Origin: Mycolicibacterium lutetiense
Lineage (GTDB): Bacteria; Actinomycetota; Actinomycetes; Mycobacteriales; Mycobacteriaceae
Reading direction: 5' to 3'
Assembly (NCBI RefSeq): GCF_017876775.1
Contig: NZ_JAGIOP010000002.1
Span: 682,001-746,000 of the forward strand
Length of the DNA: 64,000 nt
The notes under the pieces are model-generated. The model did not search any database. It worked only from the letters and a program-made list of their open reading frames with translations, and was not told the DNA's origin. A program made the translations under genes and the position numbers. Within the stretch, counting starts at the first letter, position 1, and every line of letters starts with the position of its first letter. Below, piece by piece: positions 2,501 to 38,336 of the stretch.

Positions 2501-3454
2501 TTATCGTCCAGCCAAGGCGCCACGCCGCCGGCTCGCAACGAACCGCACCACATCGGCGATCCAGTCCCGGTCGGTGCGCAGACTCAGCAGCGGCGCATCG
2601 CAACGCCGCAACGTGCGTGCCACTTCTTCGCGGTGCGCTGCGGCGGCGCGCTCGAAGTCACTGCGCAACTGCTCGTCGATGGTGAACTCGCGGGTGACAC
2701 CGGTCTCGGTGTCCTGCAGCACCACGTCACCGATGGCAGGCAGTTCGACGTCGCGCGGGTCCAGGATCTCGATTCCCAGCACCTCGTGACGACCGGCGAT
2801 CGCCCGCAGCGGGCGCATCCAGTTGATCGGTCCCAGGAAGTCGCTGATGATCACCGCCATCCCGCGCCGCCGCTCGGGACGACGCAGCGCATCGATGGCC
2901 GCGGCCAGATCGCCGCGGACCCCGGTCGGGGCCTTCGGCGTGGTGGCGATCGCCCGCAGCAATTCCTGCTCGTGTATCCGCCCACTCAGTGCCGGAACCC
3001 GGCGCACGATGTCGCCGTTGGCGATGATCGCACCGATCCGGTTGCCGCCACCGCTGTTGAGAAATGCGATCGCGGCGGCGGCCGCCACCGCAAGGTCGCG
3101 CTTCTCACACCCGGCGGTACCGAAGTCCAGGCTGGCCGACATGTCGACGACCAGCCAGGTCTCCAGTTCACGGTCGGCGATCATCTGCCGCACGTGCGGC
3201 GTCTGCGTCCGCGCTGTCACCGACCAGTCCATCCGGCGCACATCGTCGCCGGGCTGGTAGATCCGCGAGTCCCCCGGCTCCGACCCCGGACCCGGGATCA
3301 GGCCGAGGTGATCGCCGTGGAGCACGCCGTCGAGCTTGCGGCGCACCGTCAGCTCAAGCTTGCGTAACGCCGCCGTCAACGCAGGGTCCCGAATCTCCCC
3401 GCGCTTCAGAGACGGCAGATCCACTGAGCGTCGGGCCCCGGGAGGTGTGGTCAC
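2501..3454 (-). CDS. DUF58 protein (Rv1480 type)
   Basis: A 317-residue DUF58 protein. The family signature PGDDVRRMDWSVTAR is at about 68-82, followed by a VWA-like DMSASL metal site at 104-109. There is no clear signal peptide or membrane segment. The start ATG overlaps the moxR1 stop by 4 bases (ATGA), implying translational coupling. DUF58 proteins are regular partners of MoxR AAA+ ATPases, so it probably acts with the genes on either side. The precise role is unknown. Confidence 0.9.
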   Translation of the reverse strand: MTTPPGARRSVDLPSLKRGEIRDPALTAALRKLELTVRRKLDGVLHGDHLGLIPGPGSEPGDSRIYQPGDDVRRMDWSVTARTQTPHVRQMIADRELETWLVVDMSASLDFGTAGCEKRDLAVAAAAAIAFLNSGGGNRIGAIIANGDIVRRVPALSGRIHEQELLRAIATTPKAPTGVRGDLAAAIDALRRPERRRGMAVIISDFLGPINWMRPLRAIAGRHEVLGIEILDPRDVELPAIGDVVLQDTETGVTREFTIDEQLRSDFERAAAAHREEVARTLRRCDAPLLSLRTDRDWIADVVRFVASRRRGALAGR

Positions 3455-4614
3455 CGACTACCGGCCGCGGCAGCCGCGGCGGGAACGGCGGGCGGAACCG
3501 AATGCCCCTGCTGCGGAAGTGCATTCACCTGCGGCAGCGCGACTGTCTGCAGGATCCGGTTCACCACGGTCTCCGCCGACACCTCGTCCGCCAACGCGTC
3601 ATAGGTCAGCACCAGACGGTGACGGAGCACGTCGGGAATCACCTCGACGACGTCCTGCGGGATGACGTAGTCGCGGCCCCGCACCAACGCCAGCGCGCGG
3701 GCTGCCGAGATGATGCCAAGTGAGGCACGCGGCGAGGCACCGTAGGCGATCCACGCCTTGGCGTCGGGCATGCCGAACTTCTCGGGCTCGCGGGTCGCGG
3801 TGACGATCCGCACCACGTAATCCACCAGTGCGTGGTGCACGAAGTTGTTGGCCGCGAGTTCCTGGAGCCGCAGCAGGTCGCCGGTGTCCAGGATCTGCTT
3901 GGCCTCCGGAGGCTTGACACCCATCCGGTAGATGATTTCGCGCTCTTCCTCCGGCGACGGGTAGTCGACGTTGAGCTTGAACAGGAAGCGGTCGCGCTGA
4001 GCTTCGGGAAGCGCGTAGACGCCTTCCTGCTCGATCGGGTTCTGGGTGGCCATCACCAGGAACGGGCTGGGCAGCGGGAAGGTCTTACCGCCGATCGAGA
4101 TCTTTCGCTCGGCCATCACCTCGAGCAGTGCGGACTGCACCTTGGCCGGCGCACGGTTGATCTCGTCGGCCAGCAGGAAGTTGACCACCACCGGGCCGAG
4201 CTCGATGTCGAAGTCTTCCTTGCCCTGCCGATAGATGCGGGTACCGATGATGTCGGTGGGCACCAGGTCAGGGGTGAACTGGATGCGGGCGAACGTACCG
4301 CCGACGACCTTGGCGAACGTCTCGACCGCCAGGGTCTTGGCGACACCGGGCACACCCTCGAGCAGCACGTGGCCCTTGGCGAGCAGACCGACGAGCATCC
4401 GCTCGACGAGCTGGTCCTGGCCGACGATGATCCGCTTGACCTCGAAGATCGCACGTTCCAGGGTATGCACCTCGGCCTGCAGGCTGCCGTTGGTGGTGGT
4501 CTGCGGGGCAGCCGGCGCGGCGTGGGAGCCCGCCGACCCGGGCGGAAAGCCCGGCGCCGGGCTCGAACCGGGATAACCTCCGGCGCCCTGCAGCGGTCCA
4601 CTCGGTGACGTCAT
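3451..4614 (-). CDS. moxR1: MoxR-family AAA+ ATPase MoxR1
   Basis: A 387-residue AAA+ ATPase of the MoxR family, chaperone-like regulators working with VWA proteins. Residues 1-45 are a Gly/Pro/Ala-rich disordered tail. Walker A GVPGVAKT is at 87-94 and Walker B LLADEINRAP near 147-156, followed by the sensor stretch ATQNPIEQEG. ATG 4614 was chosen because GGGAGGAAG lies 4 bases upstream; a longer frame to 4683 would add 23 residues encoded partly by a short tandem repeat. It heads the moxR1-DUF58-VWA set. About 150 bases separate it from ripB, so it may have its own promoter. Confidence 0.95.
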   Translation of the reverse strand: MTSPSGPLQGAGGYPGSSPAPGFPPGSAGSHAAPAAPQTTTNGSLQAEVHTLERAIFEVKRIIVGQDQLVERMLVGLLAKGHVLLEGVPGVAKTLAVETFAKVVGGTFARIQFTPDLVPTDIIGTRIYRQGKEDFDIELGPVVVNFLLADEINRAPAKVQSALLEVMAERKISIGGKTFPLPSPFLVMATQNPIEQEGVYALPEAQRDRFLFKLNVDYPSPEEEREIIYRMGVKPPEAKQILDTGDLLRLQELAANNFVHHALVDYVVRIVTATREPEKFGMPDAKAWIAYGASPRASLGIISAARALALVRGRDYVIPQDVVEVIPDVLRHRLVLTYDALADEVSAETVVNRILQTVALPQVNALPQQGHSVPPAVPAAAAAAGSR

Positions 4615-4634
4615 CAACTTCCTCCCACGGTGTT

Positions 4635-4662
4635 CGACTAAAAAACGATCGACTAAAAAACG
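4635..4662. repeat. Two copies of a 13-base AT-rich repeat before moxR1
   Basis: The 13-mer CGACTAAAAAACG occurs at 4635-4647 and 4650-4662, a 15-base period, about 20-50 bases upstream of the moxR1 start. A-tracts in phase like this are unusual in such GC-rich DNA and could be part of the promoter or a protein site. No function can be assigned. Confidence 0.6.
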
Positions 4663-4763
4663 CTGGTCTTGCGTATTGCTCATCGGGCAATCGGGTGCCC
4701 GCCGTCAACTATTCCAGGCACTTCGAAATCCGTCGACGCTGCCCGGAAGACTTCAGGTTCCCC

Positions 4764-5459
4764 TCAGGATTCGATGATGCGGGCCGCATAGGGCTGGATG
4801 CCTGACATGCGGACCGGACTCACGGTGACTTTTTCCGCGCTGCCCGACGCCTCCAGCATCTTGCCGCCACCGAGATATATCGTCACATGCTGGCTACCGC
4901 CCGGACCCCAGAACAGAAGGTCACCGCGCTTTGCCTGAGCCACCGGCACCTTGCGGCCGGTGTTGTACTGGTCTCCGGAGTACTTGGGAATCTGCACCCC
5001 GACGCCGGCGAACGCGTACCGGGTGAAGCCCGAGCAGTCGTAGCCGATCTTGCCGGCGTCGTAGTCCACACCGGGGCCCGGGCCGGTCAACGTCCCGCCG
5101 CCCCACGAGTACGGCACGCCCATCTGTGAACCCCCGCGCCGGATCGCGTACTCGATGGCCTGTGGGCCACGGACCCGACCGCCGGGGAATGCCGAGGCGG
5201 ACTGCTTGGGGGCCAGCCCGATCGTCTGCAGGAACTGCGAACCAAGGCTCTGTGTGGTCTGCAGCGCGATCTGGCTGACCTGGAACGAGGCGTTGGCGAT
5301 GGCGACCGGGTCCCCTGGCGCGCCCGAGCTGGCGATCTTCGGCAAGGTCGGATCCCATTGGCCGGCGTCGGGCGCGGCGTTGGCCGGCGCCACGAAACTG
5401 ACCGCCGCGAACGCGCATGCGGCGATCAGGATCAGGCAACGGAAGACGTAGGAGCGCAA
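4764..5459 (-). CDS. ripB: NlpC/P60 peptidoglycan endopeptidase RipB
   Basis: Secreted D,L-endopeptidase cutting peptide stems of peptidoglycan. 231 residues: signal peptide about 1-28 (ending PANA), a short linker, and an NlpC/P60 domain from about 100 to the end. Catalytic Cys142 (DCSG), His191 (SQHV) and Glu203 (MLEAS) are visible. The only workable start is TTG 5459, giving MRSYVFRCL and a proper signal peptide. It follows ripA by 10 bases and its catalytic domain closely resembles RipA's, but it lacks RipA's coiled-coil N-terminal domain, as in M. tuberculosis Rv1478. Confidence 0.95.
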   Translation of the reverse strand: MRSYVFRCLILIAACAFAAVSFVAPANAAPDAGQWDPTLPKIASSGAPGDPVAIANASFQVSQIALQTTQSLGSQFLQTIGLAPKQSASAFPGGRVRGPQAIEYAIRRGGSQMGVPYSWGGGTLTGPGPGVDYDAGKIGYDCSGFTRYAFAGVGVQIPKYSGDQYNTGRKVPVAQAKRGDLLFWGPGGSQHVTIYLGGGKMLEASGSAEKVTVSPVRMSGIQPYAARIIES

Positions 5460-5469
5460 AGTATTCCAA

Positions 5470-6891
5470 TCAGTATTCGATATAGCGGACGACGTACGGG
5501 GTCATCCCGCTCGTGCGGACCGGGGAGACCTTGACCTCCGAACCCGTGTAGGGCGCTTCGAGCATCTGGCCGTTGCCGAGATAGAGCGTCACGTGCTGGC
5601 TACCGCCGGGGCCGTAGAAGATCACGTCGCCCCGCCGCATCTGCGAGGACGGGATCTTGCGGCCGGCGTTGTACTGCGAGCCCGAGTAATGCGGCAGCTT
5701 GATACCGACGCCGGCGAACCCGTAGAGGATCAGGCCCGAGCAGTCGAACCCGACCGTGTTGGCCCCCGAATCGATGCCGCGACTCGGCCCGGCGGCGTTG
5801 CCGCCGCCCCAGGAGTACGGCACGCCCATCTGGGAACCGGCCCGCTGGATGACGTATTCAGATGCCTGCCGGCCGTACACCCGCGGGATGGCACCGTTCG
5901 TGTAACCGGTCGGCGTAGGCAGAATCCCCAACTTCTGCAGGAAACCGCGGCCCATGTTCTGCGTCACCTGCGCCGACGTCGACGAGATGCCGAGAATGGT
6001 GTTGATGATGGCGACCGGGTCACCGCTGACGAAGGCACTGGGGATCGCCGGCAGCGTCGGATCCCATACGCCATCCCAGTTCTGGCCGGCCTGCACCGGC
6101 GCGCCCGGGGCGCGATCCCAGTCGCCCGCCGCCGCCTGTGGTGCCGGCTGCTGAGCCGGGGCGGCCGGGGCCGTCGACGCCGAGGCCTGGTGCACCTGGG
6201 CGAGCTGGGCTTGGGCCGCGGCTCGTTCGGAGGTCAACCGCTGCAGTTCATCTCGCTGCGAGCCGAACGTCTGCTGCGCAGTTTTCAACGCGGTGACCGC
6301 ACTGTCCTGACTGGTCTGGGCGTCGACGGTCGCCTGATCGGCATTGCGCTTGGCCAGGCGCGCGGCCGACTCCCGGTTGACCTGCTCGGTACGGGCGCGT
6401 TGCAGATCGGCGATCACCTTGTCGCTGCTGACCGCCAGGGTCTGACCGGTGGCGGCGGCGCTGACGATGTCGGCCGGGTCGGACGCGGTCAGGTACGCAC
6501 TGGACGGGCCGCTGACATAGGTGGCCGCAGCGAAGGTGTCGAAGCGCTTCTGCGCTTCATCGATGGCGGTGCTGGCGTCGGCGATGCCTTGCTGGCTGGC
6601 ATCGAGTTCCTGCTGCGCCGTGGCAGCCGCATCGCGGGCGTCCTGCACGTCGACAATTGCCTTGTTGACGGCTTCCTGCTGGGTCTGGATGGCAGCACCC
6701 AACTCCTGCAGCTTCTGATCGGCGTTGGCCACCGCGGCGACGAGCGTTGCGACCTGATCGGGTGCCCCCGGCTCAGCGGCGGCCGGGACACCTCCGGACA
6801 TGGCCGTGACAACCAGCATCCCGGCGGCCACCGGCACAGCCAAGAAACGGCCGTACAGCCGGGACGCCGAGGCGCCAACGGTGCGTCTCAT
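5470..6891 (-). CDS. ripA: NlpC/P60 peptidoglycan endopeptidase RipA
   Basis: Septal D,L-endopeptidase needed for daughter-cell separation in mycobacteria. 473 residues from ATG 6891: signal peptide about 1-39; an N-terminal alpha-helical coiled-coil region about 45-240 that in M. tuberculosis RipA blocks the active site; a Pro/Ala-rich linker; and an NlpC/P60 domain with Cys384 (DCSG), His433 and Glu445, one off the M. tuberculosis numbering. ATG 6891 has AGGAGA 10 bases upstream; the TTG at 6900 is too near that site. The 230-base upstream region holds MtrA-like motifs, a nested palindrome and a LexA-like box. Confidence 0.97.
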   Translation of the reverse strand: MRRTVGASASRLYGRFLAVPVAAGMLVVTAMSGGVPAAAEPGAPDQVATLVAAVANADQKLQELGAAIQTQQEAVNKAIVDVQDARDAAATAQQELDASQQGIADASTAIDEAQKRFDTFAAATYVSGPSSAYLTASDPADIVSAAATGQTLAVSSDKVIADLQRARTEQVNRESAARLAKRNADQATVDAQTSQDSAVTALKTAQQTFGSQRDELQRLTSERAAAQAQLAQVHQASASTAPAAPAQQPAPQAAAGDWDRAPGAPVQAGQNWDGVWDPTLPAIPSAFVSGDPVAIINTILGISSTSAQVTQNMGRGFLQKLGILPTPTGYTNGAIPRVYGRQASEYVIQRAGSQMGVPYSWGGGNAAGPSRGIDSGANTVGFDCSGLILYGFAGVGIKLPHYSGSQYNAGRKIPSSQMRRGDVIFYGPGGSQHVTLYLGNGQMLEAPYTGSEVKVSPVRTSGMTPYVVRYIEY

Positions 6892-30367: not shown

Positions 30368-30390
30368 CCCCGCGATGATAGGTGTGGATG

Positions 30391-31374
30391 ATGGATGGCG
30401 TGTATGCCATCGAAGTTGCCGAGACCGGCGGACCCGAAGTCCTGAGCTACGTCGAGCGGCCCGAGCCCGCTCCCGGCCCGGGCGAGGTACTGATCAAGGC
30501 CGAAGCCATCGGCGTCAACTTCATCGACACCTACTTCCGGTCCGGGTTGTATCCGCGCGACCTGCCGTTCGTCGTCGGGTCCGAAGTCTGCGGTACGGTC
30601 GCCGCCGTCGGTGACGATGTCGCGGCGCTGGCCGTCGGCGACCGCGTGGTCACCGCCAACGCGACCGGCGCATACGCCGATTTGTGCGTCGCCCCAGCTG
30701 ATTTCGTTGCCTACGTGCCTGACAATGTGGCCCCCGACGCCATCGCCTCGGCGCTGCTGAAGGGTATGACCGCCCACTACCTGATCAAGTCCACCTACCC
30801 GGTGCAGCCGAACGACACGGTGCTGGTGCATGCCGGGGCCGGCGGCGTCGGCCTGATCCTCACCCAGTGGGCCACCAGCATCGGCACCCGCGTGATCACC
30901 ACGGCCTCGACACCGGAGAAGGCCGAGTTGTCTCGGCAGGCCGGCGCGATCGAGGTGCTCGAGTACCCCGAGGATCCGGTCGAGTTCGCCGACAAGATCC
31001 GCGACCTCACCGGCGGGGCGGGTGTGGCCGCAGTGTACGACGGGGTCGGCGCGTCGACGTTCGACGCCAGCCTGGCCAGCCTCGCGGTGCGTGGCACGCT
31101 GGCCCTGTTCGGGGCGGCCAGCGGTCCGGTGCCACCGGTGGACCCCCAACGGCTCAACGCGGCAGGGTCTGTGTTCCTGACCCGGCCGACGCTGGCCCAC
31201 CACACCCGCACACCCGATGAATTCTCTTGGCGTGCGGGCGAATTGATCAATGCCATCGCAGACGGATCGATCACCATCACCGTCGGCGGCCGCTACCCGC
31301 TGGCCGAGGCGGCCCAGGCCCACACCGACCTGCAAGGGCGCCGGACGGTCGGCTCCGTCGTGCTGGTGCCCTAG
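30391..31374 (+). CDS. qor: Zinc-less quinone oxidoreductase
   Basis: A medium-chain dehydrogenase/reductase of the quinone oxidoreductase class, NADPH-dependent. About 328 residues. The N-terminal catalytic part lacks the structural and catalytic zinc cysteines of alcohol dehydrogenases; the cofactor motif HAGAGGVGL is near 148-156. Start is uncertain: ATG 30391 is used; GTG 30400 aligns best with the start of Rv1454c; ATG 30388 is also in frame. Its stop lies within the 11-base repeat that bounds the cassette. Confidence 0.92.
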   Translation: MDGVYAIEVAETGGPEVLSYVERPEPAPGPGEVLIKAEAIGVNFIDTYFRSGLYPRDLPFVVGSEVCGTVAAVGDDVAALAVGDRVVTANATGAYADLCVAPADFVAYVPDNVAPDAIASALLKGMTAHYLIKSTYPVQPNDTVLVHAGAGGVGLILTQWATSIGTRVITTASTPEKAELSRQAGAIEVLEYPEDPVEFADKIRDLTGGAGVAAVYDGVGASTFDASLASLAVRGTLALFGAASGPVPPVDPQRLNAAGSVFLTRPTLAHHTRTPDEFSWRAGELINAIADGSITITVGGRYPLAEAAQAHTDLQGRRTVGSVVLVP

Positions 31375-31378
31375 ACCG
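31368..31378. repeat. 11-bp direct repeat, left boundary of cassette
   Basis: GCCCTAGACCG, containing the qor stop codon TAG (31372-31374). The same 11 bases occur at 37386-37396 over the stop of the DUF1254 gene. CTAG is rare in such GC-rich DNA, which makes the match less likely by chance. Confidence 0.7.
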
Positions 31379-31677
31379 GATCCTGAAACCCGAAGGTGAT
31401 TTGGCTCTAGCTCACTATGACGAACTAGATGTTGTACAGATCGGTAGCAGATATTGCCACCTGGCGACTCCCAGGACTAGAGCTAGATGCACAGCCGTTT
31501 CATTCGAGACGCCGCGACCGATAGGGCGGTCTTGCCCTGTGCATCGATAATGCACTCAACGGAAGCCCTGTCCATACTTACCCACGCCTGTAATGACTGC
31601 TCTCGGTTCATGCTGTATTCATTGAACATCGAGAAAGCGACTCTTGGGCCGCCAGCAATTCTTAGGATGCAAACGCC
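31375..31677. other. Non-coding leader of the cassette
   Basis: About 300 bases between qor and the first cassette gene, visibly more AT-rich than the core genome. No ORF with mycobacterial codon bias, tRNA or recombinase site was recognised. TCTAGCTC and GAGCTAGA form an 8-bp inverted repeat far apart. A TAGGAT -10-like hexamer (31663-31668) lies ten bases before the first ATG, suggesting a promoter and perhaps leaderless mRNA. Confidence 0.5.
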
Positions 31678-32712
31678 ATGGATGACACGACGTTCGAAGG
31701 CCACAGCCCCAAGGACGTGGCTCGCGATATCTCGCGCGATATCGCGACGCTCCTCGTCGCGCACATGGACGGGTACGCCCTCCTCAACAAGAATCCCTTC
31801 GCGCAGGTCGACGGATACCCACCAGAACATCCGGGGTCTGCACCGATACGTATCGATAAGTATCTCGGCGACGCCGCCAAAGACATCGTCCAAGAAATCC
31901 GCATCGAACAGCCCACTCTTTACGGAGCAACGCTCTACCAGGAAGAAGAGATCCAGCTGTCGTATATCAAGGGCGAGGACACACGTCGCTACCGAGTCGT
32001 CGTCGACCCCCTCGACGGCTCCACCATCTACAGCGCGTTCGGCGTCGGCTGCGTTTCTGTCCTCGTCTACTGGTGGAAGAACCCCGATGACCGGCAGCGC
32101 CGCGAAGACATCTGGCAACTGCAGGGCGGATGTATCGCCCTCAATAATGGCTACGCCTTCACGTACACGCTTAACCGGCGCAGATTCCAAGATCCATTCG
32201 GCACCGTACGCGCCGACGTCGCCGTTTCGCGATTCGACCAACGCCCCCGCAGCCGCGGCGACTACAGACCCGTCGACATCATCAACCCCAATATCGACCT
32301 CGACGACAGAAACCCCGAAGGAAAGTCGACATACGTTCTGGCAAGTACGGCCGGATCCTCGCGCCGACGCAAATCGATCGAAGAAGACCTGGCGCGACAC
32401 AGTGTGGACATAGACTTCCTCGGCAGTTTCGCTGCCAATCTGTCCGTCTGGGGCGCTGTCCTCGGCACCACCAGCGTGATCATCGATCCGGCCCCGTCCA
32501 CCATGCACGACGGCAACTATCTGTTGGTGCTGCAAGCACTGAACTGGATCGTCCTCGACGCCAAGACGTGGGATGTAGTTCCTCTTCTGACAATCGCCGA
32601 GAGGCACTGCGAACCCACGATTACCCGCGAAGCACGCATTCCACCCATCTACGCGTTCCGCAACCGAGCGGTTATGGAACGATGGCGTGAAAGCAATGAC
32701 CCCAGATCATAA
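31678..32712 (+). CDS. IMPase/FBPase-superfamily protein (cassette gene 1)
   Basis: A 344-residue protein with the metal-dependent phosphatase fold of inositol monophosphatases and CysQ. The second metal motif DPLDGS is at 110-115, an acidic cluster EEE (89-91) matches the first glutamate ligand, and Asp278 (MHDGNYLLVLQALN) occupies the place of the third motif, whose usual WDxAA is altered. The natural substrate (sugar phosphate, inositol phosphate or a nucleotide such as pAp) cannot be read from the sequence. First gene of the cassette; the next starts 3 bases after its stop. Confidence 0.75.
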   Translation: MDDTTFEGHSPKDVARDISRDIATLLVAHMDGYALLNKNPFAQVDGYPPEHPGSAPIRIDKYLGDAAKDIVQEIRIEQPTLYGATLYQEEEIQLSYIKGEDTRRYRVVVDPLDGSTIYSAFGVGCVSVLVYWWKNPDDRQRREDIWQLQGGCIALNNGYAFTYTLNRRRFQDPFGTVRADVAVSRFDQRPRSRGDYRPVDIINPNIDLDDRNPEGKSTYVLASTAGSSRRRKSIEEDLARHSVDIDFLGSFAANLSVWGAVLGTTSVIIDPAPSTMHDGNYLLVLQALNWIVLDAKTWDVVPLLTIAERHCEPTITREARIPPIYAFRNRAVMERWRESNDPRS

Positions 32713-32715
32713 CGA

Positions 32716-33657
32716 GTGCGACCGCAGTCTGCTTACCGGGAGAGGCTGCCCTACAACATCGCTACAATCGGCCACGGCAGAATGGCGGGCCGCTGCACGG
32801 CACCACCCACGATTCGGCGCAAATGCCGTAGCCAGAATTGGGGCGAGGCGATGAGACGGCCACACGTAGGAGAAGCCGGGATATCAAATAGCGCCCATCA
32901 TCAGGCGATCGCACAGGCGAATATCGATGCCGACAGCACCGGTCAACTCGACAACTTTCGCGCCATGGCACACGACAGCGTCCCAGCCACCAACATCACC
33001 GCGGCCAAGGCCCTCGCGTTCGACGACCTCGTAGCTGTCGTCGACGGTCGTACCCTCCAGATCCACTGGCACGCCGGGGACCGTGGTGCCGGCCTGGCCG
33101 CCTATAGGAACGCGCAGCGCACTTTCTATGTGCGCCGCGGGGCCTTTGAGGCCCTATGGCATGGCGGTGACGGTTTCATATACTTCAGCCTCAACCACGA
33201 CACGGCCGGCACCACGGCATTCGGCCCCTTCTGCATTGCCATCGCTACCTCCCTTGACGGCCACCCTGACGCCGCCGTGTTTCCCGCCGACACCGCCCAG
33301 CGGTACACCGACTCGAGCGGAGGGATCAACGTCACGCAGGTCATGTCTGAGGTTGGCGACTGGACGGCCCGCGGCGACATCGCCGTCAACGAACTGCACA
33401 CGGACGTCGTGCCCCCGCCGTCAACGTGGCCAAACCTACTATGCAGCAAGGATCGTTACCTTGAAATCGTTGTCGTCGGTCCAGTACCTCTGGCCGACGT
33501 CTTCGAGCTTCGGTTGAACCGTGACGATGCGAAGACACTGAACCGGCTCAGCCGCCAACAGCGACGAGGTGATCTATCCGACCCCACCGACATCGCTGCA
33601 GCGCTGGCCTACCAAGCGATTCGTCGCTGGCGCGGCACGCGTCTTCGAATAGTCTGA
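32716..33657 (+). CDS. Unrecognised cassette protein (gene 2)
   Basis: Up to 313 residues. I recognise no family. Visible features: a beta-rich middle (LVAVVDGRTLQIHWHAGDRG, FIYFSLNHDTAG, FGPFCIAIATSL), a stretch GDWTARGDIAVNELHTD, and a helical C-terminus with a basic end (IRRWRGTRLRIV). No membrane segment or signal. GTG 32716 follows the previous stop at 3 bases; ATG 32851, behind GGGGCGAGG, would remove 45 poorly coding-looking residues and is a good alternative. The tight spacing suggests it works with its neighbours. Confidence 0.6.
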   Translation: MRPQSAYRERLPYNIATIGHGRMAGRCTAPPTIRRKCRSQNWGEAMRRPHVGEAGISNSAHHQAIAQANIDADSTGQLDNFRAMAHDSVPATNITAAKALAFDDLVAVVDGRTLQIHWHAGDRGAGLAAYRNAQRTFYVRRGAFEALWHGGDGFIYFSLNHDTAGTTAFGPFCIAIATSLDGHPDAAVFPADTAQRYTDSSGGINVTQVMSEVGDWTARGDIAVNELHTDVVPPPSTWPNLLCSKDRYLEIVVVGPVPLADVFELRLNRDDAKTLNRLSRQQRRGDLSDPTDIAAALAYQAIRRWRGTRLRIV

Positions 33658-33661
33658 TGGC

Positions 33662-34174
33662 ATGGCTAGACACCGGGAACAGGGTTTAACGCTTGTTGCA
33701 ATGCCCTCGAGCGGCGACGTGTTCATCGCCCAAGACAGCGATGGCGACTTATGGCTCTTTGAACCGGTGTTCAGCCGCCGAACCAAAGCCACAACCGACG
33801 ACCTCACGCTCGCCCTCGCACGGCACGATTGGGACGCGGTCGACAGAACATTCCGGACGTGGCCAGAACTCGAGGCCTACCGACAGGACATCGCTCGTGC
33901 ATTTATCGGCGGACGCACGTCGCGCCAATTCGCCGAGTACGACGAACGCGATGTGGAACTAGTTCTCGAGGAATCCCGCGACATTGATATCGATGAACGC
34001 GAGGAAACGCTCGACCTCTTATTTGCCGTGCTCAGATACGCCGAAGTGGTCCGCTCGGCCCCCTACCTCTTCAAGCAAGTCACCGACCGCATTGATGAGC
34101 TGCGCCAGCGACGGAGCACGCTGCTCGCAGACGAAAAAACGATGGCTCGAATGGCCCTACCCGCCGCGGCATAA
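33662..34174 (+). CDS. Unrecognised cassette protein (gene 3)
   Basis: A 170-residue soluble protein, probably an alpha/beta N-terminus (LTLVAMPSSGDVFIAQDSDGDLWLFEP) followed by acidic helices (EYDERDVELVLEESRDIDIDEREE and later). No known motif. Gene starts 4 bases after the previous stop and its stop lies 2 bases before the ATPase start, so translation of all three is likely coupled. Could be a small partner or adaptor of the ATPase. Confidence 0.6.
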   Translation: MARHREQGLTLVAMPSSGDVFIAQDSDGDLWLFEPVFSRRTKATTDDLTLALARHDWDAVDRTFRTWPELEAYRQDIARAFIGGRTSRQFAEYDERDVELVLEESRDIDIDEREETLDLLFAVLRYAEVVRSAPYLFKQVTDRIDELRQRRSTLLADEKTMARMALPAAA

Positions 34175-34176
34175 GC

Positions 34177-37014
34177 ATGCGCACGATCACATTCTATTCG
34201 TACAAAGGTGGGACAGGACGCACACTCCTCGTGGCCAACACCGCGATACTTGCTGCGCGCTTGGGCATGTCCGTGATGATGGTTGATCTCGACCTCGAAG
34301 CGCCTGGGCTGCCCTACAAGTTTCCCAACCAACCTAGAGCCAAACACGGGGTATTGGACTGGCTAACGGCGGAAGAACCGCCCACGGTAAACGACATCGC
34401 TACACAACTAGACGTTCCGCGGCCGTTCAGGCCGGGCGGCTCGCTGCACATGGTCGCAGCGGGACCGCCGCCGTCAATCGACTACCTGCACGGGATGAGA
34501 TCGCTGCAGAAAGGAGCACTGGCGGACGATTCAAGCGTGGCCGTACATATGCTGGTCTCACTCTGCGACGCGATTCGCGATCGATGGGCCCCCGACCTTC
34601 TGCTCCTGGACGCCCGCACCGGTGTCACAACTACAAACTTCATCACCACCCGAGTACTGGCCGACGACGTTGTCGCGCTGACCCTGAACAACCCCGAACA
34701 GCTCGAGGGCACCCGCGCGGTGCTGCAATCGCTTGTGCCGTTGAGCAAGCCCGGCGACGATACCCCCCTAGGCCTCAGCGTGATCGTTAGCAGAGTCTCC
34801 GGGCGCGCCGCTAACATCGGATCATACGAATGGAGCGACGACGAGCTTGCGACCGTCGAATCGGTGCGCGACTACCTTACCGAGCCCGCCTCGCCTCTCA
34901 GTTTGACCCTGAACGACCCTCAGGTGCTGCTCCTCCACAATGATGAAAGAGTCGCCGCCCGCGAAACTCTGCTCATGGCTGGCAACACCTCGCTGCAGTC
35001 AACCGCCCTGCACGTCGACTACCTGCGCACCGCGGTGGCGCTGTTCGGCGCCGATCTCGATGACAGGATTTCGGCTGCCATCGCTGAAGCCGACGACCAA
35101 GACAGCGCCGGCGCGCGGGCCTCCTTCTTCGCCCGTGCTGGACATACCGGTGCCGTGAAACCCGATCCTGCACAACGGATCAGTGCTGACGACACGGACA
35201 ACCTCAGCCTCACAGACCAAGTAACCCTACTGCGGTCGTTGGCTCTCAACGACCCCGCGCGTACACATGATCTGGCTGAGGCGTTGATCGCGCTCGCCGA
35301 AACCCAGCGAGCGCTTGGCGACCGGAGTGCGGCAGTGGAATCAGCGCGCGAAGCCTCTACGCTGCTGTCGCGCCTCGCCGACACCGACACCGAGAAATTC
35401 GCGTCTGATGCGTCGCGCAGCCTCGTAACATTGTCGACGTTTCTGGCAGAGTGCGGCGACGTCAACGAAGCATTGGCATCCGCCCAAGCGGCATACGAGA
35501 GAACCCAGTCCATCGCCATCACTGGACCGACGGCGGACCGCGCCCGGGCTCTGACTATCCTCACTGCGCGCTACGCCGAGAAAGGCGACGATCAAGCAGC
35601 GTTTCAGGCGGCCAGGGACGCTGCCGAGATGTGGCGCTCGCTCACGGCCGGATCCGAAGCCCAACCCGAGCTAGGTCACGCGCTTTCGGACCTGGCTACT
35701 CAGGCGGCGCAGGTCGGCGACTACGGGGGCGCGACCCATGCCGCAGAAGAAGCGGTCGCGATCTTTCGGTCGCTGACCGCCGACTACCCTCATCGGTATC
35801 TCTCCGACCTTGGCCACTCACTCGCCGGCCTCGCCGCCTCGTACTCCGACGTCGGCGCGCTGCAACCGGCTCACGATGCCGCCGCCGACGCCGCTGACCT
35901 ATTCCGATCGTTAGCGCAGGCCGAACCAGAGAAGTACCTGGATGACCTCGCTCAGACTCTGGGCAATCTCGCTACCCGCTCGGCCGACCTTGGTCTGTAC
36001 GAATCAGCGATCACGTCGGCGGAGGAAGCTGTCAGCATCTTCCGCCGTTTGGGCGTCATGGATCCAGATCGTTATCGCCCCGACCTAGCAGCGCTCCTCG
36101 CTTCGCTCAGCAGGTGGACTGGGCAAGCTGGCAACAAGGACGAAACAGTCCGTTACGGCCACGAAGCCGTCGACTTGTATCGGTCGCTCGCTGCCAACGA
36201 GCCGACTCGCTATAGCGCCGCACTGGCCTCCGCACTGACAGATCTAAGCATCGCAGAACCTTCCGCCACAGACGCCATCGACCTAGCTCAACAAGCCATC
36301 AGGCTGTACGAACCCCTCACTGTCGCACAGCCTTACGTGTACTCCTCGATCCTCGGGCGTGCCAAAGAGAACTTGGCGCGCCGTTACGCCCGCGACAATC
36401 GCACCGATGCAGCTATCGAGAACGTGCGCGATGCCATACGCCTTTACCACGAAACGGCCGACATCGACGAGTGGCGGCGCATCGAGAGACTGGCGCAGGC
36501 GTTGCACGAACTGAGCGGATTTCTGGCTATGTCTGCGACGCAGCTCACCGTCGCCGGACGGGACCCGGAAGCGCACGCCAGACGCCAGGAAGCCCTAACG
36601 ACGGCCAGCCAGTCTGCCAGTTTCTACCGCCAGCTCGGAAACACAAATTCTGAGCGCTACCTTCCTGCATTAGCGAGTGTGCTCTCCGATATCGCAGATC
36701 TTCAGGCGCTCCTCGGTGATGGTGCAAAAGCTCAATCCGCCGATAGTGAAGCTCATTCCATTCACAACCAACTGATTCACGCCAAACCTCCCCGTCGGGC
36801 GTCGGGCACAGCCACGCGCATCAGTCGGTTCGAGATCTTCCGGGAAGTGGGGGGTGGGTACAGCTTCCGGCTCAAAGACGCCAATGGCCAAATCATATTA
36901 ACCGGAACTCCGCAACCCACCATCGCCGGCGCCCGAAACGGAATACGGGAAATTCGCGACATCGCTAGTGAACCCGCTGAGATCATGGACGTCACGGAAG
37001 GTGGAACAACATAG
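34177..37014 (+). CDS. KGGTGR-type P-loop ATPase with TPR array and DUF1508 tail (gene 4)
   Basis: A 945-residue multidomain protein. Residues about 1-290 form a MinD/ParA-like ATPase with the variant Walker A KGGTGRT (10-16), DLDLEAPGL (37-45) and Walker B LLLLDARTG (141-149). A short linker leads to a long TPR-like array from about 345 to 870, with recurring signatures such as A..EAV.IFR.L and PEKYLDDLAQTL about 45 residues apart. The last 60 residues (about 884-930) match DUF1508/YegP (FEIFREVGGGYSFRLKDANG, then ARNGIREIR). KGGVGR/KGGTGR ATPases joined to TPRs occur in Streptomyces conflict and FxSxx-COOH type systems. Role here unknown; a sensor/effector scaffold is inferred. Confidence 0.8.
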   Translation: MRTITFYSYKGGTGRTLLVANTAILAARLGMSVMMVDLDLEAPGLPYKFPNQPRAKHGVLDWLTAEEPPTVNDIATQLDVPRPFRPGGSLHMVAAGPPPSIDYLHGMRSLQKGALADDSSVAVHMLVSLCDAIRDRWAPDLLLLDARTGVTTTNFITTRVLADDVVALTLNNPEQLEGTRAVLQSLVPLSKPGDDTPLGLSVIVSRVSGRAANIGSYEWSDDELATVESVRDYLTEPASPLSLTLNDPQVLLLHNDERVAARETLLMAGNTSLQSTALHVDYLRTAVALFGADLDDRISAAIAEADDQDSAGARASFFARAGHTGAVKPDPAQRISADDTDNLSLTDQVTLLRSLALNDPARTHDLAEALIALAETQRALGDRSAAVESAREASTLLSRLADTDTEKFASDASRSLVTLSTFLAECGDVNEALASAQAAYERTQSIAITGPTADRARALTILTARYAEKGDDQAAFQAARDAAEMWRSLTAGSEAQPELGHALSDLATQAAQVGDYGGATHAAEEAVAIFRSLTADYPHRYLSDLGHSLAGLAASYSDVGALQPAHDAAADAADLFRSLAQAEPEKYLDDLAQTLGNLATRSADLGLYESAITSAEEAVSIFRRLGVMDPDRYRPDLAALLASLSRWTGQAGNKDETVRYGHEAVDLYRSLAANEPTRYSAALASALTDLSIAEPSATDAIDLAQQAIRLYEPLTVAQPYVYSSILGRAKENLARRYARDNRTDAAIENVRDAIRLYHETADIDEWRRIERLAQALHELSGFLAMSATQLTVAGRDPEAHARRQEALTTASQSASFYRQLGNTNSERYLPALASVLSDIADLQALLGDGAKAQSADSEAHSIHNQLIHAKPPRRASGTATRISRFEIFREVGGGYSFRLKDANGQIILTGTPQPTIAGARNGIREIRDIASEPAEIMDVTEGGTT

Positions 37015-37083
37015 TGCCGCGAACAGTCACCGATAGGCACCCATCGACCCCGACCGTCTTGCTGAACATGCGAAAGGCGACTA

Positions 37084-37266
37084 GTGACAGCCAGATTCGA
37101 GATCATCGACGATGAGTTCGGCACCTACAAATTCCAGGTCCGATCACGCGGCGGCGACATCTTGGCTACCAGCGATCCTTACCCGTCGAAGGCATCTGCT
37201 CGAGAGGGCATCGCGTCCATCCGATCGCTAGTCCTCGACGGACCGGTGTTGGATCTCACAGACTGA
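37084..37266 (+). CDS. Small DUF1508 (YegP-like) protein (gene 5)
   Basis: A 60-residue protein that is essentially one DUF1508 unit: ARFEIIDDEFGTYKFQVRSR, then ATSDPYPSKASAREGIASIR. It aligns with the C-terminal tail of the ATPase 70 bases upstream (shared RFEI, Y-F, G-I, P, AR-GI, IR). GTG 37084 is the start. It may be a free partner of the fused domain or a decoy. YegP proteins are small, of uncertain function, seen in many bacteria. Confidence 0.7.
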   Translation: MTARFEIIDDEFGTYKFQVRSRGGDILATSDPYPSKASAREGIASIRSLVLDGPVLDLTD

Positions 37267-37343
37267 CGACTTCGCCGTGACGCTGGGACCATGCGCGCAT
37301 CGAGTGTAGTGGCGATCGGTGTGTACGAGTCTGCCGCTGCAGC

Positions 37344-37366
37344 GCACCCAACGAAAGTTGGCGTGC
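37344..37366. terminator. Stem-loop with GAAA tetraloop, end of cassette
   Basis: GCAC-CCAAC (37344-37352), GAAA loop, GTTGG-C-GTGC (37357-37366): nine pairs with one bulged C, just downstream of the DUF1508 gene. Probably the cassette terminator. It would also face the DUF1254 gene on the other strand. Confidence 0.45.
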
Positions 37367-37385
37367 ACATCGCTGGCCCCAAACC

Positions 37386-37396
37386 GCCCTAGACCG
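37386..37396. repeat. 11-bp direct repeat, right boundary of cassette
   Basis: GCCCTAGACCG again (compare 31368-31378). On the minus strand its TAG is the stop of the DUF1254 gene. Removing 31379-37396 would leave qor and the DUF1254 gene convergent with overlapping stops sharing CTAG. Confidence 0.7.
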
Positions 37397-38336
37397 CCTG
37401 CGCCTCGGGGAACGTCCAGGACCCGTCGAGAATCTCGGGCCTCGGCCGGTACAGCCGCACGATGTAGTTCCACCCCTCGGTGACCGGCAACAGATTCGGC
37501 GCGCCGCTCCCACCGAACTGCACCGTGGTGGAGCCGTCCGGATCCTTGACCGCGGTGACGTTGTTCAGCGAGTAGGCATTCTGCGGGTTCGCGGTGAAAT
37601 AGCCGTCCTTGTTGTAGACCGTCACCGACCAGAACCCGTCCACCGGGACGTCTTTCACGGTCAGCCGGTGCACGGTGGCGCCGTCGTTGCGCGCCGGCAC
37701 CACCGTGAGATAGAACGCGTCGCGGGCGGGGTTGCCGCCCCAGGCGAACGCCGAGCCGATCAGATGCCGGACCGGCTCCACTTCGTACTTGGGCCCGAAC
37801 ATTCCCCTGGTGTCTGCAAGGGTGGTCGACAGGGTGATGAGTGCGTCCCGAACCGTCTTCTGACTGACCGGATCCCACTGCGGGATCTCGAAGAATCCCG
37901 GCTCGTCCTGCGAGACGGTGATCGCATCCTGCAGCGCATGCACTGCGGCCAGGTCAGCGGTATCGCCCGGGTCGACCAGGGTGCGCACCGCCGCGATCGC
38001 ATAACGGGTGTCGACGGAGTCGCGGCTGAACGTCACCTCGGCCGGCGCATAGGCGACGTTGGTGGTGTAGTGGTCCTCGCTGATGACCTGCAGCGACATG
38101 AATCGGCCCGCGCTGTCGGGCAGCGTGACGGTGACGGGCCCGCCGTCGAGATCGAACACCGCCGCGGAGTAGAGGGTGTCGCGGTTCTGCCGGATGACGA
38201 GCTGATGATCGATCGGGGTCAGCTCGCGGTTGTGGAAGAACTTTCCGAACCCGCCGTCCTTGACGGCATTGGCGAAGTACACATCGGATTCGGCGCGGGC
38301 GAAGTTGTCGGGGCTCACCAATTCGGTCATGCCCAC
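37389..38336 (-). CDS. DUF1254/DUF1214 protein
   Basis: A 315-residue protein of the DUF1254-DUF1214 family. DUF1254 spans about 18-150 (FFHNRELTPIDHQLVIRQNRDTLYS is its hallmark) and DUF1214 about 195-300 (FAWGGNPARDAFYLTVV, then VPVDGFWSVTVYNKDGYF, YSLNN). No clear signal peptide. Function unknown; some relatives are linked to envelope or sugar metabolism. Start at 38336 or ATG 38330. Its stop falls in the right cassette repeat. It is divided from ctaB by a stem-loop. Confidence 0.88.
   Translation of the reverse strand: MGMTELVSPDNFARAESDVYFANAVKDGGFGKFFHNRELTPIDHQLVIRQNRDTLYSAAVFDLDGGPVTVTLPDSAGRFMSLQVISEDHYTTNVAYAPAEVTFSRDSVDTRYAIAAVRTLVDPGDTADLAAVHALQDAITVSQDEPGFFEIPQWDPVSQKTVRDALITLSTTLADTRGMFGPKYEVEPVRHLIGSAFAWGGNPARDAFYLTVVPARNDGATVHRLTVKDVPVDGFWSVTVYNKDGYFTANPQNAYSLNNVTAVKDPDGSTTVQFGGSGAPNLLPVTEGWNYIVRLYRPRPEILDGSWTFPEAQAV

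Follow-up and report, generated by a model that had tools for sequence, protein, structure and literature searches.

A rare gene triad with a KGGVGR ATPase-TPR protein on an island of Mycolicibacterium lutetiense and its possible conflict role

What is a block of about 6 kb doing in the middle of a conserved core gene order, and which of its genes belong together? The question is raised by five co-directional genes of Mycolicibacterium lutetiense, here called genes 1–5, in the block at positions 31379–37385 of a 64,000-nucleotide stretch (NZ_JAGIOP010000002.1, positions 682,001 to 746,000; hereafter the window). A preliminary description, made from the letters alone, took all five for one defence or stress-response system with a small-molecule phosphatase arm. 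We find that the conserved unit is instead the triad of genes 2, 3 and 4, which is rare and well supported, and that the block carrying it is an insertion. Our preferred reading, to which we give slightly less than an even chance, is an island built around a rare three-gene conflict module, with gene 4 as the sensor or switch, gene 3 as an adaptor or restraint and gene 2 as the effector.

Outside the window, genes 2, 3 and 4 stand in this order in four more independent loci of actinobacteria, namely L053 (genome G425), L054 (G295), L068 (G532) and L069 (G962), where the proteins are 20–40% identical to those of the window. Pairwise over the five loci, identity is 20–38% for gene 2, 19–31% for gene 3 and 30–46% for gene 4. 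The gene 2 proteins fall into two groups, the window with L053 and L069 versus L054 with L068, at 20–29% identity between them. The two junctions of the triad are a 4-base and then a 2-base gap in the window, a gap of 9 and then a 4-base overlap in L053, and a 4-base overlap and then a gap of 13 in L054. In L068 and L069 they are a 4-base overlap followed by 6 and 5 bases, respectively, these two overlaps resting on GTG starts of our choice, as the longest open reading frames (ORFs) overlap more.

The triad was traced through several draws of genomes, which overlap and whose counts are not additive. Among 296 genomes of the phylum, six have a gene 2 match (E ≤0.01) and 11 a KGGVGR match (E ≤1e-15). 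Both matches occur in three of them: the genome of the window itself, G425, with gene 2 at E 6.4e-46, and G295, with gene 2 at 0.0019. In G425 and G295 they lie side by side. Gene 2 is matched in three of 248 genomes in a second search (G425, G532 and, weakly, G671), in two of 249 in a third (G295 and G962), in 3 of 181 from the order of G962 (G962, G295 and G1341) and, among 296 genomes of the window's class, in its own genome only. G1341 was not counted, being equal to G962 over 15,984 bases.

G425, G532 and G962 were all found by gene 2 similarity regardless of position, and all three have genes 3 and 4 next to it. G295 was kept despite its weak gene 2 score because the match adjoins a KGGVGR gene, and the link was tested later by a held-out profile. 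Dropped were the gene 2 hits of G287, G349 and G470 (E about 0.002), genomes with no KGGVGR match at E 1e-15, and that of G671 (E 2.6e-4), in whose 11.8 kb none of genes 1–5 was matched. Four loci under the KGGVGR cut-off (L059–L062) were set aside, no KGG.GR ORF being found in them.

Profiles built from some loci find the others among 2,297 background ORFs. A gene 2 profile of the window, L053 and L069 recovers the held-out L054 (E 1.1e-19) and L068 (7.9e-15), the next non-family ORF scoring 0.064. The converse profile of L054 and L068 recovers L053 (1.1e-22), L069 (1.3e-16) and the window (1.2e-7), the next being at 0.05. For gene 3 the first combination recovers L068 (2e-9) and L054 (2.7e-6) before the next at 0.47, and the reverse one L069 (1.2e-7), the window (1e-5) and L053 (6.7e-4) before the next at 2.4. 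On the dropped loci, the first gene 2 profile gives ORFs of G671 at 0.064, G349 at 0.089 and G470 at 2, and none of G287 at E 10. Homology across the five loci thus extends to all three genes of the triad.

Genes 1 and 5 are not part of this unit. With tblastn, neither could be matched convincingly in the other four triads, where a distant 60-residue gene 5 could be missed, and the DUF1508 tail of gene 4 is present in one of the five gene 4 proteins, that of the window. The single five-gene system is thus rejected, and a small-molecule phosphatase arm of the core is not supported; of the expected recurrence in other actinobacteria, the part that stands is the order of genes 2, 3 and 4.

How the triad came to lie here is told by the edges of the block (Table 1). 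There are exactly two copies of the 11-mer GCCCTAGACCG in the 64 kb, against 0.02 expected from shuffles, and they directly flank the block. The left copy meets the gene at 30382–31374, which we take to be quinone oxidoreductase-like (qor), and the right copy a convergent gene at 37389–38336, presumably DUF1254-like. The GC content is 0.609 in the block versus 0.661 in the remainder, in agreement with the preliminary description, and the lowest-GC stretch of 6007 bases in the window begins at 31364, 15 bases off the block edge.

The qor-ctaB interval was then taken from 20 of 76 other same-genus genomes with a ctaB match. The convergent neighbour is present in four of these intervals (L005, L006, L007 and L015), and in three of them, L005, L006 and L015, it directly adjoins qor with no insert. 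At the unfilled site the 11-mer is found once and unbroken in the close relative L006, and broken by 3 additional bases in L005. Genes 1–5 have no tblastn match at E 1e-3 in any of the 20 intervals. Because of the exact flanking 11-mers and the unfilled sites in relatives, the interruption of the core order, as first proposed, is real and the block is an insertion. The best explanation is a horizontally acquired island that entered at one exact point, where the stop codons of two convergent core genes meet, and left an 11-bp duplication. Among its five proteins there is no Pfam match to integrase or transposase families, a tRNA scan found no tRNA gene in the window, and Rfam and promoter or terminator scans gave nothing usable.

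Table 1. Positions of the genes, motifs and repeats of the island in the window
Feature	Position	Strand	Description
Left 11-bp direct repeat GCCCTAGACCG	31368-31378	+	Overlaps the stop codon of the presumed quinone oxidoreductase-like gene (30382-31374)
Gene 1	31678-32712	+	344 aa; FBPase/IMPase-superfamily phosphatase; DPLDGS at residues 110-115
Gene 2	32851-33657 (ATG; alternative GTG start 32716)	+	Core gene; 268 or 313 aa; no family match
Gene 3	33662-34174	+	170 aa; core gene without family match; a short N-terminal stretch is conserved
Gene 4	34177-37014	+	945 aa; KGGVGR-motif ATPase 1-186, TPR array about 367-870, DUF1508 tail 893-932
KGGTGR variant Walker A (KGGTGRT in gene 4)	34204-34221	+	All five loci have KGGTGR here
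DUF1508 tail of gene 4	36853-36972	+	Residues 893-932, E 2.1e-7
Gene 5	37084-37266	+	60-aa stand-alone DUF1508 protein, E 8.8e-8
Right 11-bp direct repeat GCCCTAGACCG	37386-37396	+	Overlaps the convergent gene (37389-38336) at its stop codon

The content of the qor-ctaB interval varies within the genus. L007 (G099), a close relative, has a different insert of 3.2 kb at the same qor junction, at about 2862–5832 and with a GC content of 0.565. It carries HipA_C/Couple_hipA and GmrSD_N (DUF262) genes, with PADLOC matches too, and the HipA-like and GmrSD_N genes are possibly a defence pair; no common sequence of at least 7 bases was found at its ends. In the more distant relatives L011 (1825–11174) and L017 (4645–13998) the interval is filled, in the same arrangement, by what appears by eye to be a sugar-transport and kinase operon, one of the two having an additional IMPase-like gene.

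What, then, is gene 1? Its fold and its two-metal motif EE...DPLDGS...D place it in the FBPase/IMPase superfamily. The residues E89, E90, D110, D113 and D278, presumably those of the metal site, are invariant in all four aligned sequences, gene 1 counted. Curated cut-offs do not support a plain FBPase of class 1, as gene 1 falls below the Pfam PF00316 gathering score (22.6 vs 34.8 bits) and the NCBIfam cut-off (15.4 vs 368 bits). The structural scores are tied among FBPase, SBPase, PAP phosphatase, IMPase and histidinol phosphatase, which leaves several substrate classes.

Gene 1 is also rare. A protein database of 5.8 billion sequences holds three relatives besides its own protein, the match among 151 genomes of the family is its own genome, and viral contigs scanned with the gene 1 and gene 2 alignments contained no relatives. 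Leifsonia has a gene 1 relative with genes 2–5 absent within 10 kb. In that locus (L004, 8677–10993), the relative is divergent from a gene whose 383-aa product has an ATP-cone match and, below threshold, an NrdR-type zinc ribbon, a hint that this phosphatase family is linked to nucleotides. A 2022 paper (PMC9503650) describes phosphatases coupled to ADP-ribose-handling defence loci, by analogy with which a role of gene 1 in such a system is thinkable, no more. The best reading is that gene 1 is an accessory or a passenger outside the triad.

These findings bear on whether the block is chance cargo, with unknown genes carried along beside a metabolic phosphatase and a TPR protein and no joint function among them. 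Gene 1 standing without genes 2–5 in Leifsonia is in its favour, and so is the apparently metabolic cargo in the qor-ctaB interval of other relatives. The triad order, however, is kept at 20–40% identity in four other loci and the homology of genes 2 and 3 is borne out by held-out profiles. Chance cargo is likely for genes 1 and 5 only, and for the block as a whole we deem it distinctly improbable.

Residues 1–186 of gene 4 score 123.7 bits against the NCBIfam KGGVGR cut-off of 90 (NF047398), and the gene 4 proteins of L053 and L069 pass it too, so the ATPase belongs to the KGGVGR family. The ParA/MinD loop normally has a lysine where KGGTGR has its arginine. The TPRs are like those of kinesin light chains, which are scaffolds for protein binding. 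All five gene 4 proteins match PDC-M28B, a candidate-defence model of PADLOC; the window's protein does so with its ATPase domain (residues 2–184, E 1.1e-20) and covers only model positions 129–317 of 438. Gene 4 has no match in phages and matches in 65 plasmid records, none spanning 80% of it and, among the matches listed, mostly of the TPR type. The motifs and domains of genes 1, 4 and 5 are all where the preliminary description had placed them, with Pfam and NCBIfam supporting the domains of genes 4 and 5.

The stand-alone gene 5 resembles the tail of gene 4 (36% identity, E 3.8e-5) and is best read as an accessory or passenger outside the triad. Some neighbours of gene 4 and the triad elsewhere deserve mention. 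The end of gene 4 in L068, within the TPRs, appears to be frame-broken. Divergent beside the triad of L053 (3100–5961) is a gene whose 953-aa product has numerous TPRs and, under the Pfam cut-off, a STAND-like NTPase region. Just upstream of the triad of L054 (4159–5314), an ATPase-like gene is split by eye over two overlapping frames, the second part having no Pfam match; this is either a broken gene or an assembly error.

Is gene 4 then a known protein in a new setting? The KGGVGR ATPase domain recurs in conflict-type loci, as the preliminary description had stated. In the KGGVGR set, L057 and L058 hold FxSxx-COOH TPR proteins (NF040586, 995 and 820 bits), and L058 also an FxsB gene. Gene 4 is like them in an N-terminal KGGVGR-variant ParA/MinD-like ATPase followed by TPRs (NF040586, NF047398). 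Gene 4 of the window is itself no FxSxx protein: it is not listed under NF040586 at E up to 1, the cut-off being 300 bits. The TPRs of the L069 protein match weakly at 62 bits, far under that cut-off. The triad differs further in its partners, genes 2 and 3. No FxsB or radical SAM family match occurs in the five proteins of the block, the outer genes of the window being read by eye only.

This likeness gives some weight to a signalling or developmental module, in which gene 4 works like the FxSxx-COOH KGGVGR-TPR proteins, genes 2 and 3 are regulators and no anti-phage role exists. The proteins of L057 and L058, the weak match of the L069 TPRs and the scaffold-like TPRs of gene 4 all agree with it. 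The lack of a radical SAM match in the five proteins and of an FxSxx_TPR listing for gene 4 speaks against it, and a patchy, island-borne distribution is less usual for development genes. We consider such a module unlikely.

Two further KGGVGR loci were observed. In L056 the KGGVGR gene has a neighbour that, judged by eye, resembles a radical SAM protein gene. In L055 (7242–9032) PglX-like and PglW-like genes, which we take to be PglX and PglW of BREX-2, enclose a KGGVGR ATPase gene together with another that is ATPase-like; the ATPase pair is perhaps an undescribed part of the BREX-2 cluster.

Genes 2 and 3 fit no known family, in line with the preliminary description, neither having a Pfam or NCBIfam match above cut-off nor any relative besides itself in the protein database. 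For gene 2, the start at ATG 32851 is favoured by the public prediction P0005 (268 aa, 86% of the query) and by the lengths of the four homologues, which depend on the starts that we set for them. This start leaves 138 bases after gene 1, the 3 bases first reported arising only with GTG 32716. Because the homologues and the public prediction favour 32851, the 3-base gap is doubtful; the other reported gaps, 4, 2 and 69 bases, hold. For gene 3, the public prediction P0006 (157 aa) starts 13 residues later. A stretch TL(V/L)A(M/L) upstream of that start is common to the window and three of the four homologues, the fourth (L068) having RLLAM. As this stretch is conserved before the P0006 start, we prefer the start at 33662 and the 4-base gap.

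The predicted structure of gene 2 gives one weak hint. Its model, of low confidence, resembles the ADP-ribosyltransferases SopF, DarT and Tpt1. In a second structural look the top eight rows are all chains that we place in the ADP-ribosyltransferase superfamily, after which Z falls from 3.4 to 2.6. R96 and E205 are invariant in all five loci. Several results weigh against this assignment. Other tests of the fold were weak or empty, gene 2 has no sequence, Pfam or profile similarity to DarT, SopF or Tpt1, and Pfam DarT (PF14487) gives no match and an hhalign probability of 0.15%. Gene 2 is tentatively a predicted ADP-ribosyltransferase-fold enzyme. As a member of the DarT family it is ruled out at the sequence level, the fold hint alone remaining.

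A DarTG-like system would have gene 2 as a DarT-type DNA ADP-ribosyltransferase and gene 3 as a substitute for the macro-domain antitoxin. DarT chains do rank 3–7 in the second structural look, and the gene 2 and DarT alignments share an invariant Arg, followed 15 residues later by a Tyr, as well as a Glu late in the sequence. Against it stand the missing DarT match and profile-profile signal and also gene 3, in which, as in its four homologues, no macro domain was matched. A system of this type is very improbable.

The pair could also be a toxin and its antitoxin, genes 2 and 3 respectively, with gene 4 just a regulator or stabiliser. The 4-base overlap of the two genes in L054, and with the chosen starts in L068 and L069, suits such a pair, and by the identities above gene 3 has diverged more than gene 2. 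Gene 4, though, is the best conserved of the three and comes next in each of the five loci, which makes it a core part. We regard a two-gene pair as improbable, a shade more so than a signalling module.

Three components bring the triad close to another group. In PMC7159879 (Kaur et al. 2020, eLife), MinD/ParA-like domains, predicted inactive, are reported among the effector domains of conflict systems and in stand-alone peptide-processing systems. The triad shares with the VMAP and vWA-MoxR ternary systems treated there the three-component conflict layout and a MinD/ParA-like domain. It differs in that no vWA or MoxR Pfam match is found in the five proteins of the block and genes 2 and 3 lie outside any Pfam family. 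Literature searches returned no published description of the gene set, as the preliminary description had supposed, nor do Pfam, NCBIfam and PADLOC describe it for the window's proteins.

The defence reading of the triad is plausible from its context, which includes KGGVGR proteins in conflict-type loci and the GmrSD_N and HipA genes at the same junction in L007. The defence role, the division of labour, ADP-ribosylation and the role of gene 1 are inferred. In the conflict module that we prefer, the TPR array and the DUF1508 tail of gene 4 would bind a cue, gene 5 being a possible exchangeable partner. The binding would change the state of the KGGTGR nucleotide-binding domain. Gene 3, which comes straight after gene 2 in each of the loci, may restrain gene 2 or bridge it to gene 4. 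Gene 2, once released, could modify or deplete a target through its tentative ADP-ribosyltransferase fold. Gene 1 would be an accessory, a phosphatase whose substrate may be a phosphorylated product of nucleotide or sugar type.

A fuller version makes the locus an undescribed ternary immune system. The KGGTGR ATPase-TPR protein would unleash an ADP-ribosyltransferase-fold effector held by its small partner, the phosphatase would clear or recycle an ADP-ribose or phosphonucleotide product, and gene 5 would duplicate the DUF1508 tail of the sensor in free form. Taken whole, this is speculative and on balance unlikely.

In summary, the triad includes two protein families unnamed in Pfam, is kept across distant actinobacteria and lies here on an island, which makes it a test case for a new conflict system. 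If it is one, the KGGVGR ATPase-TPR proteins of actinobacterial conflict loci would gain a partner set.

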